64,000 nt of DNA from Chryseobacterium sp. 36-9 (GTDB lineage: Bacteria > Bacteroidota > Bacteroidia > Flavobacteriales > Weeksellaceae), in contig MKVE01000019.1 in the NCBI GenBank assembly GCA_001898785.1, forward strand, positions 74,693 to 138,692. The letters are read 5' to 3'. Below, in pieces: positions 4,681-38,294 of this stretch. Within the stretch, counting starts at the first letter, position 1; the number at the start of each line of letters is the position of its first letter. The position numbers and the translations under genes are program-made. Under the pieces are notes generated by a model. That model was not told the origin of the DNA, ran no database searches, and saw only the letters and a list, made by a program, of their open reading frames with translations.

Positions 4681-7600
4681 ATGAGATACATATACCAATT
4701 ATATCTTTTTATCATACTTCTGTTCGTTGCGATTTCCTGCGCTGTTCAAAACGCCGATTACGGAAAAAATGCCAAAAACTTTGTGAAAAACCCAACGATT
4801 AAAGATAGCATCATTCACACTTTTTATTTGGTTGGTGATGCTGGGAATCTTGATCAGGATGAAGCTTTCCACAATATGAATATTCTGAAAGATTCATTAT
4901 CCAAAGCTCCGGAAAATAGTACTTTGATGTTTTTGGGAGATAATATTTATCCAGTCGGAATGCCAAAAAATGAGGACGAACATAGAGCTTTGGCGGAGAA
5001 AAAAATGGATAACCAGATTTCATTATCTCAACAGTTCAAAGGAAAAACGATTTTCATTCCCGGCAATCACGATTGGTACAACAACGGCATCAAAGGTTTG
5101 AAAAGAGAAGAAGATTATGTTACAGAAAAACTGAATGACAAATCGGCTTTCGGACCAAGAAACGGCTGTCCCATTGAAACCAGAAAAATCAACAAAAAAC
5201 TGACTTTGATTTTAGTGGACGCAGAATGGGTTTTGGCAAATTGGGACAAAAATCCGGGTATCAATGAAAAATGCGACCTCAAAACCCGCGAAGATTTCTA
5301 TACAGAATTCGAAGACCAGCTGAATAAAAATCAGAACAAAACCATTGTTGTGGCAACACATCATCCATTGATGACGAACGGCTCACACGGCGGAAAATAT
5401 TCTTGGGAAAAGCAGATTTTTCCTTTGGAAAATAAAATTCCACTCCCGGTTTTAGGTTCAATTATCAATTTGACAAGGGCAACCGGCGGAATCACACATC
5501 AGGATATCAGCAATCAGAATTATAAAAATCTGGCAGACCGACTGAAAACTTTGATTGGCGGAAGGAAAAATGTCATCGTAGTTTCTGGTCACGACCATAA
5601 TTTGCAATACATCGAGCAAGGCGACATCAGACAAATCGTTAGCGGCGCAGGTTCCAAAACGGAATCTGCAAAAGCCATTGGAAGTAATGATTTTTCATTT
5701 GGAAAAAACGGATACGCAGAACTGAAAATCTCAAAATCAGGAAATGCTGAAGTGAATTTTTACACTCTTAATCCAAAAAAATCGGAATTGTTATTCAGAA
5801 AAACGGTTTTGGAAAACGAATCGAAAATTGCGAAAGATTACCCGAATCAATTTCCTCAAAATACAGAAGCCTCGATTTATGATTCTGCAATGACGAAGAA
5901 AAGTAAGTTCTACGAGTTTCTGTGGGGAAAGCATTACCGTGAATATTATTCGAAAAAAATCAATGTCAAAAATCTGGAATTGGACACATTATTTGGTGGC
6001 GTGAAACCCGATAGAGCAGGAGGCGGACATCAAACCAAATCCCTTCGTCTGGAAACCAAATCCGGAAATGAATACGTGATTCGTGCGCTGAAAAAAAGCG
6101 GTGTAAGATTTTTGCAGGCTGTGGCGTTCAAAAATCAATATGTAATTGATGATTTTTCGGATAGTTATGCGGACAAATTTTTGTTGGATTTTTACACGAC
6201 TTCTCATCCTTACACGCCTTTGGTAATCGGTGGAATGGCAGACAAATTGGGAATTCGTCACACAACACCGGAGTTATTTTACATTCCAAAACAGAAAACT
6301 CTTAAAAATTTCAATGAGAATTTTGGAAATGAATTGTATTATCTCGAAGACCGACCAATGGAAACCGAGGAAAATCCGAACAAAGTTCTCGGAACTGATG
6401 AAGTAATCCTGAATCTTGCCAAAGATGAAAAATATAAAATGGATGAAAAAGCGTGGATCAAAGCACGTTTGTTCGATATGCTGATTGGCGATTGGGACAG
6501 GCATCACGATCAATGGAAATTCGAATCCAGGAAAGAAAATGGCAACGTGATTTACAGCCCGATTCCGAAAGACAGAGACCAGGCTTTTTCAAAATATGAC
6601 GGTTTTATCACGGGAATCCTGATGGAATTTCCTGATCTGAAACATATGCAGACTTTTGATCATCAGATTGAAAGCGTGAAGTGGTTTAACCGTGAACCTT
6701 ATCCGTTGGATTTGATTTTTGCTAAAAATTCTAATGGAAAAGACTGGCAGGGTTTAGCAGAATTTATTCAAAATCATTTATCGGAAAATGACATTAGAGA
6801 AGCTTTTAAAAACCTTCCAAAAGAAGTTCAGGATAAAGTTTCAGAAGATTTGATTCAGAAATTACTGACGAGAAAAAATGACCTTCAAAAATATGCTTCG
6901 GCTTATTTCAAATTCCTTCAGGAAAAAGTGGTATTGACCGGAACTGACAAAAAAGACAAATTTGTAGTCACCAGATTACCGAATAACGAAACGGAAGTCA
7001 AAATCATCAGACTGAAAAAATCGGGAGAAGAATTGCAATCATCCAAGCTTTATTCGGGTTTGATGACCAAAGAAATCATATTGTATGGTCTGGATGACGA
7101 TGACGAATTTATTGTTGAAGGAAAACCACATTCGAACATCAAAATCAAACTTTTGGGAGGTTTGGATAACGATAAATATTCGGTTTTCAACTCCAGGAAA
7201 GTGACGATTTACGATTATAAAAGTAAACCGAACAATTTCGAAAATAAAGGAAGTGCAACTCTGAAGTTGACTGATGACTATGACATCAACCAGTACAACT
7301 ACAGAAACCCGAAATATAATGTTTTTACCACATTTATGAATTTCAATTTCAATCCGGATGATGCCTTGGCGATTGGTTTTAATGCAGATTATACCGTGAA
7401 TGATTTTATCAAGAATCCGTTTTCTCAGAAACACCATTTTACAGCCAATTATTTCACAGGAACGAGAGGTTATGAACTGGCTTATCAGGGGATGTTTCCA
7501 TTGTTGAAAGGTAAGTGGTTTTACGGCTTGGATACGAGGGTCACGAGTTCTCATTACATCAGAAATTTCTACGGCATTGGTAATGAGACAGTTAATCCGA

Positions 7601-34657: not shown

Positions 34658-35065
34658 ATGAAAAATTTACAGTTAATCGGTTTGTTTCTGGTTGTGGCAG
34701 GCAGTTTTTTGCCGTTGGTTCATATTCCAATTGTTGGAAACTGGAACTATTGGAAAGTCGATCATACACTTGCGATTGCAGTTTGGGGATTTTCTTTATT
34801 AATGCTGGTTTTCATTCTAATTAATAAAAATAAATTCGTGAAAATAATGACATTCTTAATGATTTTGCTTTTTGTTTTCACAATTGTTGCTATTAAATTA
34901 AAATCTTTGGATTATTTCAGCTTTTTACCCTTCAAATCCTGGCAATCTACATTTGCAGGAATTGTAAAATTGTCGTGGGGCTGGCTCATCGAATTTTTAG
35001 GAGTTGCTTTAATTTTAATCGCATCAAGAAAAAATAGATTTGAACCACAAGAGCTCAAAGATTAG
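34658..35065 (+). CDS. Small integral membrane protein, 135 aa
   Basis: Four hydrophobic segments (about residues 4-22, 38-55, 61-80, 103-123). Family not recognised. The last seven residues, EPQELKD, and the stop codon are encoded by the first bases of the 109-bp tandem repeat that follows (35041 onward), so the C terminus appears to have been extended or replaced by the repeat. No obvious operon partner. Confidence 0.6.
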   Translation: MKNLQLIGLFLVVAGSFLPLVHIPIVGNWNYWKVDHTLAIAVWGFSLLMLVFILINKNKFVKIMTFLMILLFVFTIVAIKLKSLDYFSFLPFKSWQSTFAGIVKLSWGWLIEFLGVALILIASRKNRFEPQELKD

Positions 35066-35262
35066 CACAAAGAGCAGAACTAACTTTAGAACTAATGAAG
35101 GACATTGTGAACTTAGAGAAAAAGACTTTGTAACCTTGTTTAAAAAAAATGAACCACAAGAGCTCAAAGATTAGCACAATAACACAACTAACTTTAGAAT
35201 TAATGAAAGGACATTGTGAACTTAGAGAAAAATCTTTGTGAACCTTGTGTTTTAAAAAAAAA
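35041..35262 (+). repeat. Tandem duplication (two units of about 109-112 bp) of an ACCACAAGAG...CTTTGTGAACC element
   Basis: Unit 1 is 35041-35149 and unit 2 is 35150-35262; both begin TGAACCACAAGAGCTCAAAG and end with AACCTTGT followed by an A-run, and differ at few positions. Each unit has outer arms that can pair (ACCACAAG with CTTTGTGAACC-type sequence). Related single elements occur at 40139, 42582, 53581 and 58387. Confidence 0.85.
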
Positions 35263-35288: not shown

Positions 35289-36470
35289 ATGAAAGAAGTA
35301 TTCATTGTATCAGCGGTCAGAACACCAATGGGAAGTTTTATGGGAAGCTTATCAGGCGTTCCTGCAACACAATTGGGAACGGCTGCGGTAAAAGGAGCTT
35401 TAGACAAAATCAATCTTGACCCTGCTTTGGTTCAGGAAATTTATATGGGGAACGTTTTGCAGGCTGGTGAAGGACAAGCGCCGGCAAGACAAGTCGCTTT
35501 GGGCGCAGGTTTATCTAATCATACACCTTCTACAACTATCAATAAGGTTTGCGCTTCCGGAATGAAAGCCGTAACAATGGCAGCTCAGGCAATTAAAGCA
35601 GGCGATGTGGATGTTATTGTTGCTGGAGGAATGGAAAATATGTCAAGTGTTCCTCATTATTTGGATGGGAGAAACGGCGTAAAATTAGGCGAAATCAAAA
35701 TGCAGGACGGACTTTTGAAAGACGGTTTGACGGATGTTTACAACAAAGTTCATATGGGTGTTTGTGCGGAACTATGCGCAAAAGAAAATGATATCACAAG
35801 AGAAGAACAGGATGCTTTTGCTATTCAATCTTACAAAAGATCGGCTGCAGCTTGGGAAGCCGGCAAATTTGCAGATGAGGTTGTTCCTGTAAGTATTCCA
35901 CAAAGAAAAGGAGAACCAGTTGTTTTCTCAGAAGATGAAGAATATAAAGCAGTTAAATTCGATAAAATCCCAACGTTGCCAACGGTTTTCCAAAAAGAAA
36001 ACGGAACAGTAACCGCAGCTAATGCTTCAACCTTAAATGACGGCGCTTCTGCTTTGATCCTGATGTCAAAAGAAAAAATGGAAGAATTAGGATTGAAACC
36101 ATTAGCTAAAATTATCTCTTATGCCGATGCAGCGGTTGAGCCGGAAAGATTCACAACGGCACCTTCTAAAGCTTTACCAATCGCCCTTAAAAAAGCAAAT
36201 TTGACCAAGGACAATATCGATTTCTTCGAATTTAACGAAGCGTTTTCGGTTGTAGGTTTAGCAAATAATAAAATACTTGGTTTGGATGATTCTAAAGTGA
36301 ATGTGAACGGTGGGGCAGTATCGCTTGGACATCCGCTGGGAAGTTCCGGCTCCAGAATTATTGTTACCTTAATCAATGTTTTGAAACAGAATAACGGAAA
36401 ATACGGTGCAGCTGCAATCTGTAATGGTGGCGGTGGCGCAACAGCGATTGTAATTGAAAATTTGCAATAG
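35289..36470 (+). CDS. Acetyl-CoA C-acetyltransferase (thiolase), 393 aa
   Basis: Condenses or cleaves acetoacetyl-CoA. Catalytic residues are visible: acyl-accepting C88 in [12 protein letters not shown]349-region in [10 protein letters not shown], and the second cysteine in CNGGGGAT near residue 379. Length and the N-terminal [12 protein letters not shown] are typical of biosynthetic/degradative acetyl-CoA acetyltransferases (AtoB-like). It can feed the mevalonate route (mevalonate kinase is 4 kb downstream) or work with the CoA-transferase at 46.6/50.4 kb. Single gene ending in a strong terminator. Confidence 0.95.
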
Positions 36471-36493: not shown

Positions 36494-36528
36494 AACCCTT
36501 TCAGAGTTTCAAACTCTGAAAGGGTTTT
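36494..36528 (+). terminator. Terminator after the thiolase gene
   Basis: Perfect 16-bp stem AACCCTTTCAGAGTTT with its reverse complement, one-base loop and short T tail. Confidence 0.8.
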
Positions 36529-36549
36529 GAGTTTGTAATTTACTAGGTC

Positions 36550-36738
36550 GACCTGCCCAATTGGTAAGTCGATCTATCTGTTTTGTAGCTTAACCTATAC
36601 TTTTCATAGGCTGACCTGTCTTTTCAACAGATCGAGCTGAGGTTAAGGCAGGCGGACCTGCTAATTTTGCAGCCCTCCCTAAAGATTTGCAAGCCGGACT
36701 TTACTTCAAACCAGTTGTAACTTTAAACTTGAAGCAAA
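36550..36738. repeat. Degenerate tandem array, nine units of exactly 21 bp, with per-unit hairpins
   Basis: Units begin at 36550, 36571, 36592, 36613, 36634, 36655, 36676, 36697 and 36718 with GACCT or close variants, with no insertion or deletion over 189 bp. In units 2-6, positions 4-7 pair with 15-18 while the bases differ: CTAT/GTAG, CTAT/ATAG, CTGT/ACAG, CTG/CAG and CTGC/GCAG. The first and last units have decayed further. Confidence 0.75.
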
Positions 36739-36740
36739 TA

Positions 36741-36777
36741 AAACCATTAATTAATCATTTTATTTAATGGTTTTTTT
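36741..36777 (+). terminator. Hairpin with T-run after the 21-bp array
   Basis: AAACCATTAA pairs with TTTAATGGTTT, followed by seven T; it precedes the MFS promoter box directly. Confidence 0.5.
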
Positions 36778-36784
36778 ATTTTTG
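36777..36784 (+). promoter_or_regulatory. -7 box TATTTTTG for the MFS transporter gene
   Basis: Exact TAnnTTTG match 19 bases before the start codon, immediately after the hairpin's T-run. Confidence 0.55.
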
Positions 36785-36803: not shown

Positions 36804-38294
36804 ATGTCAGAAATAGAAACAACGACGACAGAAAACTCAATCAAGAATAATCCGAAAATAATGCGTGCCTGGGCATTGTACGATTGGGCCAACTCGGTTT
36901 ATTCGCTGGTGATTACATCGACGATTTTCCCGATTTATTATACAATACTTACAACGGCTTACAACAAAAAAGAATTTGTTGCTTCAGCAAATGAATATCA
37001 GGAAGTACCCGTTCGTAATTTGATAAAAATTTTTGGAGAAAGCTATGAACCGGATGCCATTCTTAGTTTTTCATATGCAATTTCATTCTTTTTGGTGGTT
37101 TTATTATCTCCATTTTTATCATCTTTAGCAGATACTATTGGGAATAAAAAATCATTTTTACAGTTTTTCTGTTATCTGGGAGCAACATCGTGTATGGGAT
37201 TGGCGATGTTCACAGGGATGAACAATATTTTCCTCGGTCTGTTGTTCAGTATTACTGCAAGTGTAGGTTTTTGGGGAAGTTTGGTGTTTTATAATTCTTT
37301 TTTGCCCGATATCGCAACTCAAGACAAACAAGATGCGCTCTCTGCAAAAGGTTACATTTATGGTTATATCGGTTCAGTATTACTGCTCATTATCTGTTTG
37401 TATTTAATTCAAGGTATTACAGATGACCCAAAAAAACAAAATATTCTTATTAGAGTTAGTTTTTTATTAACAGGAGCTTGGTGGTTTGGTTTTTCTCAAT
37501 ATACTTTTAAACATTTGCCACAGTTTGGAAATGTTAAAGAAAATTTACCAAAGGATTTGGTTCTTCTCAATTATAAGAATATTTTCAAAAAACACGCAGA
37601 GCACGGTGGATTTTGGGAAGTATTTAAAGATAATGTAAGTTTTTATGTAGATATTGCTAAAGAGAGCTTTAAAGAATTATTTAAGGTAGGTAATAAACTT
37701 TTTGGAGATAAAAATCTAAAATTTTTTCTTTCCAGTTTTTTCTTTTACAGCATTGGTATGCAGACCATTTTTCTAATGGCGACACCTTTTGGTAGTAATG
37801 TTGTTTTCCCAAAAAGTGATGAAAAATATAAATTAATCATAACAATTCTTGTAATCCAAGTTATTGCAATTTTTGGAGCTTTTCTGTTCTCGAAGTTATC
37901 AAAGAAAATAGGAAACAAAAATGTTATTACTATTTCTGTAATTATTTGGGTTGTTTGTTGTTTATCTGCCTTTTCTCTTAATAAAGAAAATCCTAATCTC
38001 CAATATCAGTTCTACGGTTTGGCAGGTTTGATAGGTTTGGTAATGGGTGGTTTGCAGGCAATGTCAAGATCGACGTACTCTAAATTATTACCGGTAGATT
38101 CTATGGAAAATACAACCTATTTCAGCTTTTATGATGTGTTAGAAAAAATTGCAATTATCTTTGGAATGTTAATATTCAGTGTTTTTATACAGAAGTTTGG
38201 AAATATGCAATATGCTTTTATTGCAATGTCGGCTTTCTTTATTGTAGGTGCAATTCTTATTAGATTTGTAAAGGCGAAAATCAATATTAATTAG
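36804..38294 (+). CDS. UMF1/Atg22-type MFS transporter, 496 aa
   Basis: About twelve membrane segments. The N-terminal signature RAWALYDWANSVYSLVITST and the mid-protein SVGFWGSLVFYNSFLPDIA, plus GLVMGGLQAMSRSTYSKLLP, are characteristic of the UMF1 (Atg22/VPS-like) branch of the major facilitator superfamily. These are presumed exporters of amino acids or other small molecules; substrate unknown for the bacterial members. The esterase gene begins 8 bases after its stop. Confidence 0.88.
   Translation: MSEIETTTTENSIKNNPKIMRAWALYDWANSVYSLVITSTIFPIYYTILTTAYNKKEFVASANEYQEVPVRNLIKIFGESYEPDAILSFSYAISFFLVVLLSPFLSSLADTIGNKKSFLQFFCYLGATSCMGLAMFTGMNNIFLGLLFSITASVGFWGSLVFYNSFLPDIATQDKQDALSAKGYIYGYIGSVLLLIICLYLIQGITDDPKKQNILIRVSFLLTGAWWFGFSQYTFKHLPQFGNVKENLPKDLVLLNYKNIFKKHAEHGGFWEVFKDNVSFYVDIAKESFKELFKVGNKLFGDKNLKFFLSSFFFYSIGMQTIFLMATPFGSNVVFPKSDEKYKLIITILVIQVIAIFGAFLFSKLSKKIGNKNVITISVIIWVVCCLSAFSLNKENPNLQYQFYGLAGLIGLVMGGLQAMSRSTYSKLLPVDSMENTTYFSFYDVLEKIAIIFGMLIFSVFIQKFGNMQYAFIAMSAFFIVGAILIRFVKAKININ

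Follow-up and report, generated by a model that had tools for sequence, protein, structure and literature searches.

The window, a stretch of 64,000 nucleotides from Chryseobacterium sp. 36-9, contains a thiolase gene and an MFS transporter gene, and an array of short repeat units lies in the gap between them. The features of this region are the following.

35289..36470, + strand: acetyl-CoA acetyltransferase (thiolase) gene, left neighbour (Pfam Thiolase_N, 3.3e-100)
36494..36527, + strand: inverted repeat with a T run, terminator-like, between the thiolase stop codon and the array
36544..36738, + strand: eroded array of 21-bp units with a core related to TAGGYNNRCCTA and a spacer that is T-rich on the + strand
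36571-36675, + strand: units 2-6 of the array, with a stem of 3-4 bp across the spacer (pairing count)
36740..36777, + strand: terminator-like hairpin with a T run, 3' of the array (from the sequence)
36777..36784, + strand: TATTTTTG, ahead of the MFS gene (from the sequence), similar in array-less genomes; it resembles the Bacteroidota promoter element TAnnTTTG
36804..38294, + strand: MFS transporter gene, ATG22-like, right neighbour (Pfam)

The original prediction placed the array between two terminator-like hairpins upstream of an MFS gene, and this position was borne out by the sequence. Judged by eye, the hairpin 3' of the array is kept in array-bearing genomes, and some array-less ones (L020, L024, L025) have a similar hairpin. 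The inverted repeat at 36494-36527, AACCCTTTCAGAG...CTCTGAAAGGGTT, recurs in many dispersed copies across genomes of the genus. Upstream of the thiolase gene, at 35041-35248, a 109-bp unit is repeated 1.9 times.

From position 36550 onward nine units follow each other in 21-bp steps with zero indel. This regularity, which had been noticed in the sequence, was confirmed by the self-match at lag 21, which amounted to 87/183 positions over 36539-36742 compared with a mean of 46.5 and a maximum of 67 in 2000 mononucleotide shuffles. When the lags 10-79 were ranked by their best 150-bp stretch, the 64-kb window reached its top score, 78 matches, with lag 21 at 36525; the runner-up was lag 42, with 74 matches at 36539. 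Tandem Repeats Finder at score 30 did not report the array. The true start of the array lies slightly earlier than 36550, at about 36544 (TAGGTCGACCTG). Model R1, which was built from arrays in other genomes including orthologues of the window gap, matched 36544-36597 (E 3e-11 on the - strand and 3.4e-10 on the + strand) and also 36607-36660.

It had further been claimed that each unit keeps a hairpin, with positions 4-7 of units 2-6 able to pair with positions 15-18. In units 2-6 the claim stood, with 3, 4, 4, 3, and 4 of 4 positions paired, whereas units 1, 7, 8, and 9 have just 2, 2, 1, and 2 of 4; in units 7-9 the spacing is therefore kept, the dyad hardly. A CRISPR array was rightly dismissed from the start: neither a conserved repeat of ~24-48 bp nor unique spacers of similar size were found. 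The pattern is a 12-bp dyad with 9-10-bp spacers, and the spacers recur in many arrays. A search of the window stretch against Rfam 15 gave matches below the gathering score only.

Arrays in related genomes

The MFS gene is present in 23/23 congeneric genomes, array or no array. An array was found at the orthologous gap in six of them (G000, which is the window's own genome, G005, G008, G010, G019, and G022). The remaining 17 gaps, which vary in length, showed no array by eye, and a covariance model recovered the same six genomes at this place. The 21-bp period, whose conservation in relatives had been proposed as a check, is conserved at the gap in these six genomes. In the orthologues the unit is clearer and consists of a 12-bp dyad, TAGGYNNRCCTA, and a 9-bp spacer, T-rich on the window + strand. 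The units of the window looked divergent because the window copy is eroded. Six dyads were recognised in it (chain score 47), compared with 9-11 (scores 82-100) in the other five. The identity at lag 21 was 0.49 in the window and 0.44-0.58 in the other five (G010 0.52, G019 0.58), the measured stretch in some of the lower-scoring orthologues having taken in flank or an indel. Thus it is the dyad chain by which the window array is ranked most eroded; lag-21 identity alone does not rank it worst.

A second site in the genus, beside a YciA-like thioesterase gene, is filled in 3/23 congeneric genomes. A covariance model built from arrays of this kind matched in 10/23 genomes of the genus, the match in G018 being weak. 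Searching the window's genome with a single-unit pattern was uninformative, with 10 matches compared to 37 for the reversed control.

Other 21-bp arrays, for which a search had been suggested, were found with the same motif in many other Bacteroidota. A two-unit pattern retrieved 48 stretches from public genomes, 36 of them with a chain of dyads. The 12 stretches without a chain contained one match each, all under non-Bacteroidota titles. The hosts of the dyad chains were Flavobacterium, Epilithonimonas, Frigoriflavimonas, Taibaiella, Chitinophagales, and other Bacteroidota; one of the 36 was a weak 4-unit chain in a Clostridia MAG. With two mismatches allowed, the two-unit pattern matched 18/246 genomes of the family, a figure that includes chance matches, since the reversed control also matched several genomes; genomes with one lone two-mismatch place were not counted as array-bearing. 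Across the phylum, the covariance model gave matches in 9/395 genomes under stricter filters, some of them weak. The units in the dyad chains follow each other mostly at 21 bp, or at steps alternating between 21 and 22 bp or in the order 21/22/22. Some genomes carry several solo arrays. Changes may be concerted within an array, for example in L070 and L064, and several different stems are found inside one array in L184 and L167. In a comparison of 25 arrays, the flanks of non-orthologous ones had no sequence in common except the linked gene described below and matches of 25-27 bp. In 10 array-bearing loci Rfam gave no gathering-score match over the array, and the sole match was a tRNA in L090.

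The linked protein family and its arrays

When the gene neighbours of 46 array loci were compared, one protein family was found at 11 of them. Because four of these represent one site in four Epilithonimonas genomes, the 11 loci count as 8 independent ones. The linked gene, here called A2-type, encodes a protein of ~160 aa and lies 20-217 bp from the array, which is on its 3' side at 10 loci and on its 5' side at one. The other 35 array loci have no A2-type gene alongside. Among the 23 congeneric genomes four carry the A2-type gene, each with an array beside it, and in G016 the gene is split in two pieces. No A2-type gene is present in the window's genome. Genomes with this gene and genomes without it both carry solo arrays of the motif. 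Two distant homologues of the linked protein are encoded in the window's genome. The array at the first (G000:C39) scores 34 at period 41 and 27 at period 21, the array at the second (G000:C16, L215) reaches a marginal score of 22 at period 43, and the motifs of both are unlike the window array. The link to a gene family and the missing gene in this genome are invisible from the window alone.

The protein of the linked family is unannotated and predicted to be all-helical. It is acidic (median pI 5.1, net charge -4; 66 copies, duplicates included), which speaks against simple binding of nucleic acid and leaves room for a partner. Scanned members gave nothing better than E 0.02 against Pfam, 0.04 against PADLOC, 0.05 against PHROGs, 0.07 against NCBIfam, and, by sequence, 0.06 against the PDB. 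The structure model was weak (pLDDT 81 for the best of five, 55-60 for the others); fold searches with this model returned no usable match. None of these searches pointed to a recognisable DNA-binding family or fold. Using two members in tblastn, no homologue was found in plasmids and phages, and no viral contig with A2 was confirmed. No neighbour family is shared within 1.4 kb by more than 6/44 loci. In L164, L186, L187, and L167 the array is followed by a small ORF of 103-126 aa that looks HTH-like by eye; BLAST relates the ORFs of L164, L186, and L187 to one another. An HTH-like gene was considered as a general third part and rejected, the cluster being present in just 3/44 loci, with no Pfam match for L164 and L167.

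Distant homologues found by protein alone had a different array in the same place, with a period of 22 in L164, 21 in L161, and 42 in L162. Periods of 12-47 were scanned for 34 homologues, comprising the best place in each of 30 genomes and L161-L164. In 30 of the 34 a significant array was located within 900 bp downstream, with a best period of 21, 22, 41, 42, 43 or 44; L172, L180, L189, and L190 had none. In flanks of 500 bp, 30/34 homologues were periodic downstream versus 2/34 upstream (periods 17 and 35). As a control 36 neighbouring ORFs in 30 loci were examined, none of which had a 21/22 array and one of which had a period of 17. Among 40 further copies 31 had a period of 21/22/43 (or 42/44), one of 20, and one of 14, and seven had none. 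The copies from the class search with a 3' array thus number 57/70 (26/30 and 31/40), and 13/70 are without a 21/22-type array. In this search the profile A5 (balanced) matched 74 places in 35/375 sampled genomes of the class, namely the 70 examined, L215 with its marginal array, and three near contig ends that stand outside the count.

Seventeen genomes had been chosen for TAGG-type arrays or model matches. A homologue was found in 13 of them, with up to 10 copies. Among the four without a homologue, three had weak model matches and the fourth, G1230, is a 2.3-Mb MAG with two strong arrays. The A2-type copies L202, L203, and L213, which come from these 17 genomes, had no array 3'. In the genome of Taibaiella soli (G1238) alone, the small-protein family was matched ten times.

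The 21/22 period persists in genomes of many family codes, and the array keeps its place 3' of the protein family down to 14-21% protein identity. A terminator-like hairpin was found between stop codon and array in 19/39 loci by a simple scan; in L084 the best hairpin of the scan falls inside the array, though a hairpin with a T run precedes the array. Steps of 21 bp were counted 292 times, of 22 bp 106 times, of 20 bp six times, and of 23 bp twice, the steps having been restricted to P-1, P, and P+1; that other steps are absent follows from the scans of periods 12-47 and not from these counts. Two helical turns, as suggested for the window, are the unit length in most of the family.

The period clusters on the protein tree, and clades that differ in dyad sequence share the two-turn spacing. 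Mapped onto 56 proteins, the 22-bp label required 5 changes versus a mean of 11.0 after shuffling (0/500 as low), a clustering to which near-copies in the tree contribute; co-inheritance of neighbours alone would likewise cluster the period. The motif is shared less consistently. The unit profile of L103, which is of the TAGGYNNRCCTA type, matched 9/11 arrays beside other A2-type proteins, the exceptions being L210 and L098, whose steps mix 21 and 22. Within one clade, 22-bp units with GTAGTTNGAACCAATA are common to L164, L204, and L205, and L211 has similar ones; the units of L212 and L187 are unlike them. L164 and L204, with 90% protein identity, have their motif in common, while the sister proteins L182 and L183, with 80% identity, have unrelated units, both with a 22-bp period. 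As the letters differ between such close proteins, spacing and dyad are more stable than the letters, which can mean either recognition of shape or replacement of the array.

Dyad symmetry and compensatory change

When compared with column-shuffled profiles, the unit profiles were dyad-symmetric (p<0.05) in 29/42 arrays and not significantly so in 13/42. Strong divergence with preserved pairing had originally been proposed. Between arrays the dyad is kept while the stem letters differ; within arrays compensatory change is weakly supported.

For the TAGG family (43 arrays, 579 spacer pairs, five stem positions) Watson-Crick pairing across the spacer exceeded within-array shuffles at three of the five positions, with z values of 5.9, 5.7, and 7.4 compared to 0.3 and 0.4 at the other two. 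Across the centre the values were 2.9, 0.4, 1.0, 0.3, and -6.1. Because a single Chitinophagales MAG with alternating units contributes ten of the 43 arrays, the number of independent events is lower than these counts. In 48 gene-linked arrays the mean maximal z was 0.96 on the dyad axes versus 0.58 at other centres, a small excess (p 0.028 in both the t-test and the Wilcoxon test). The covariation check that had been suggested thus turned out positive in part.

A first covariation scan, in which the axis was chosen by total pairing, was biased and was discarded. With the axis chosen by pairing between units, 37 arrays gave a Stouffer z of 1.1 for the stronger axis and 3.3 for the other. Either helix, when imposed across species, shows complementary changes, and between-species counts therefore cannot tell the axes apart. 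In 16 A2-type arrays of assigned orientation, the stems as read on the gene strand had 39 G-T versus 62 A-C mismatches, unlike what selection on an RNA of that strand would give. The compensatory stem change read from the window is probably real but modest.

A protein-plus-array module and its alternatives

The arrays are linked to a gene family, have a fixed period, and in most cases are dyad-symmetric. A repeat 3' of most copies of one gene family in the sampled Bacteroidota genomes points to an undescribed module of protein plus repeat. Such a module would consist of the gene for a ~160-aa helical protein followed by about 5-25 dyad units at 21 or 22 bp, often with a terminator-like hairpin between the gene and its 3' array. 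The thiolase and MFS genes of the window are neighbours and lie outside the module. The array would work as DNA in which every unit is a site of two turns and all sites face the same side of the helix. A periodic complex of the protein, or of a partner, would assemble on it, guided less by base sequence than by spacing and dyad shape. Arrays without the gene could serve in trans or could be relics. The latter is probable for the window array, because its genome has no A2-type gene and because it has the fewest recognisable dyads of the six orthologues. According to the best explanation as a whole, a two-part Bacteroidota module is represented here by its nucleic-acid half alone, in a solo copy that is decaying; taken with its putative mechanism, we regard this explanation as evenly poised between right and wrong. 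Counting against it are the 35/46 array loci that lack the gene, an acidic protein with no recognised DNA-binding family or fold, the 13/70 copies without a 21/22-type array, the 13/42 unit profiles that are not significantly dyad-symmetric, and the two strong arrays of G1230, where no homologue was found. More tentatively, the helical proteins might form an undescribed class that recognises shape and two-turn phasing instead of sequence, each paralogue (up to 10 per genome) having its own distinct array whose stems drift with compensation.

We considered four alternatives. First, the array could act as RNA: its transcript would form a row of short hairpins (stem 4-7, loop 5-10), to be bound or processed by the helical protein, somewhat like the stem-loop arrays of TIGR systems. 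The partial compensation in the stems is compatible with this, both at three of the five TAGG pairs and over the 48 arrays (p about 0.03), as are the several different stems within single arrays of L184 and L167; in addition, the window array folds better as RNA than its shuffles (z -2.7; 2/200 equally good). However, a terminator-like hairpin stands ahead of the array in the 19/39 loci of the simple scan, and the gene strand has no G-U bias, an argument that does not extend to RNA from the opposite strand. No excess of G-T together with a hairpin before the array favours DNA over an RNA of the gene strand. Furthermore, Rfam found no gathering-score match over the array in 10 loci, and hairpins would not need an exact 21/22-bp step. 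We consider an RNA the less likely reading, but a live one.

Second, the arrays could be non-functional minisatellites that are made and homogenised by slippage at short inverted repeats, a process promoted by the gene product or by the locus, which would account for the adjacent gene. Quasipalindrome correction by template switching would even yield complementary changes. The erosion of the window array (6 dyads, score 47; lag-21 identity 0.49) and its absence from 17/23 gaps fit such an origin, as do the concerted changes in L070 and L064, the fast turnover of motifs, and the 35/46 array loci without the gene. A neutral satellite should track neither one gene family nor one period, yet the 21/22 period persists across many family codes, and the position 3' of one protein family down to 14-21% identity. 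Other periods 3' of the same genes are rare (1/40 with period 20 and 1/40 with period 14). This counts against a minisatellite, which we think improbable.

Third, the arrays could be passengers resembling MITEs or REPs and mobilised by a transposase or by the protein encoded next to them. Solo arrays are dispersed, and some genomes have several; this would agree with mobility, and so would the filled and empty sites at two loci in the genus (6/23 and 3/23). Among the flanks of 25 arrays, however, no element boundaries were seen, in a test that is blind to short terminal repeats, and the scanned members of the protein family matched no transposase family, making a mobile element quite unlikely. 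Finally, since 21 bp equal seven codons, the array could encode heptads, and the arrays of L165, L064, and L070 are indeed open in one frame with heptad-like peptides; this can be practically dismissed, as the window array has a stop codon in all six frames within 36539-36742 and arrays of 22, 43, and 44 bp beside the same proteins cannot keep frame.

The preferred module was also compared with known systems. In plasmid centromere or iteron arrays such as the parC/ParR or omega sites, helically phased repeats are bound cooperatively by a small protein encoded with them. Unlike these, the present arrays are found in genome assemblies, in several copies, and 3' of the gene; further differences from plasmid partition are that tblastn with two members found no plasmid copy and that no neighbour family occurs in >6/44 loci.

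According to the sections of PMC12045711 available to us, TIGR arrays consist of 8-12 nt repeats and 9-nt spacers in tandem beside a single Nop-domain Tas gene and form stem-loop arrays in some clades; the spacers are guides, the transcript gives 36-nt RNAs, and a terminator follows the array. Short tandem repeats with spacers adjoining one protein gene are common to TIGR-Tas, as far as so described, and the present arrays. In contrast to TIGR, the spacer here belongs to the dyad-symmetric unit of 21-22 bp and is repeated with it, and in many cases the terminator-like hairpin precedes the array. No Nop domain was found among 6 members by Pfam (E up to 1) or, with the weak model, by Foldseek against PDB/VIA.

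REP/BIME elements are described, in the portions of PMC3733652 at hand, as short intergenic palindromes in tandem groups with an associated small protein gene, RAYT. The present arrays share these traits; on that description the units differ in being fixed at two helical turns and the array in lying directly 3' of its cognate gene. A RAYT reading had been prompted by the many ~160-aa neighbours and was rejected, as no Y1 transposase match was obtained for the family members scanned in Pfam (8 + 6) and NCBIfam (3 + 6), some of them twice; the first scan in each database covered ten proteins, of which two (Pfam) and seven (NCBIfam) proved to be other neighbours.

BrickBuilt of Porphyromonas gingivalis, in the extracts of PMC4596501, is a MITE with a 23-nt minisatellite and predicted stem-loops near terminators; it has a leader and a tail with IS5-type terminal inverted repeats, and these extracts report no linked small-protein gene. 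The likeness lies in tandem repeats between genes of Bacteroidota with units about as long, in the predicted stem-loops, and in the nearby terminators; units of 21/22 bp instead of 23 nt and linkage to a small-protein gene are the difference. In the literature as partly accessible (including PMC6749651, PMC5771137, PMC3733652, PMC12045711, and PMC4596501) no description of such a gene-array module was found.

An unannotated gene family thus appears to go together with a structured DNA array of regular period on its 3' side. If gene and array work together, this would be a new kind of partnership between gene and repeat, and 21/22-bp minisatellites of Bacteroidota would be candidate functional sites and not noise. 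That the protein clade goes with the period more than with the sequence is a directly testable rule.

Two array loci show features of their own. The array of Flavobacterium branchiophilum (L103) is followed by a Cas4 gene at L103:2503-3063 (Pfam Cas_Cas4, E 1.6e-9). The 3' flank of the array in L090 contains, at about 7310-7330, one copy of AATTTCTACTATTGTAGAT, which we take to resemble a Cas12a-type direct repeat.
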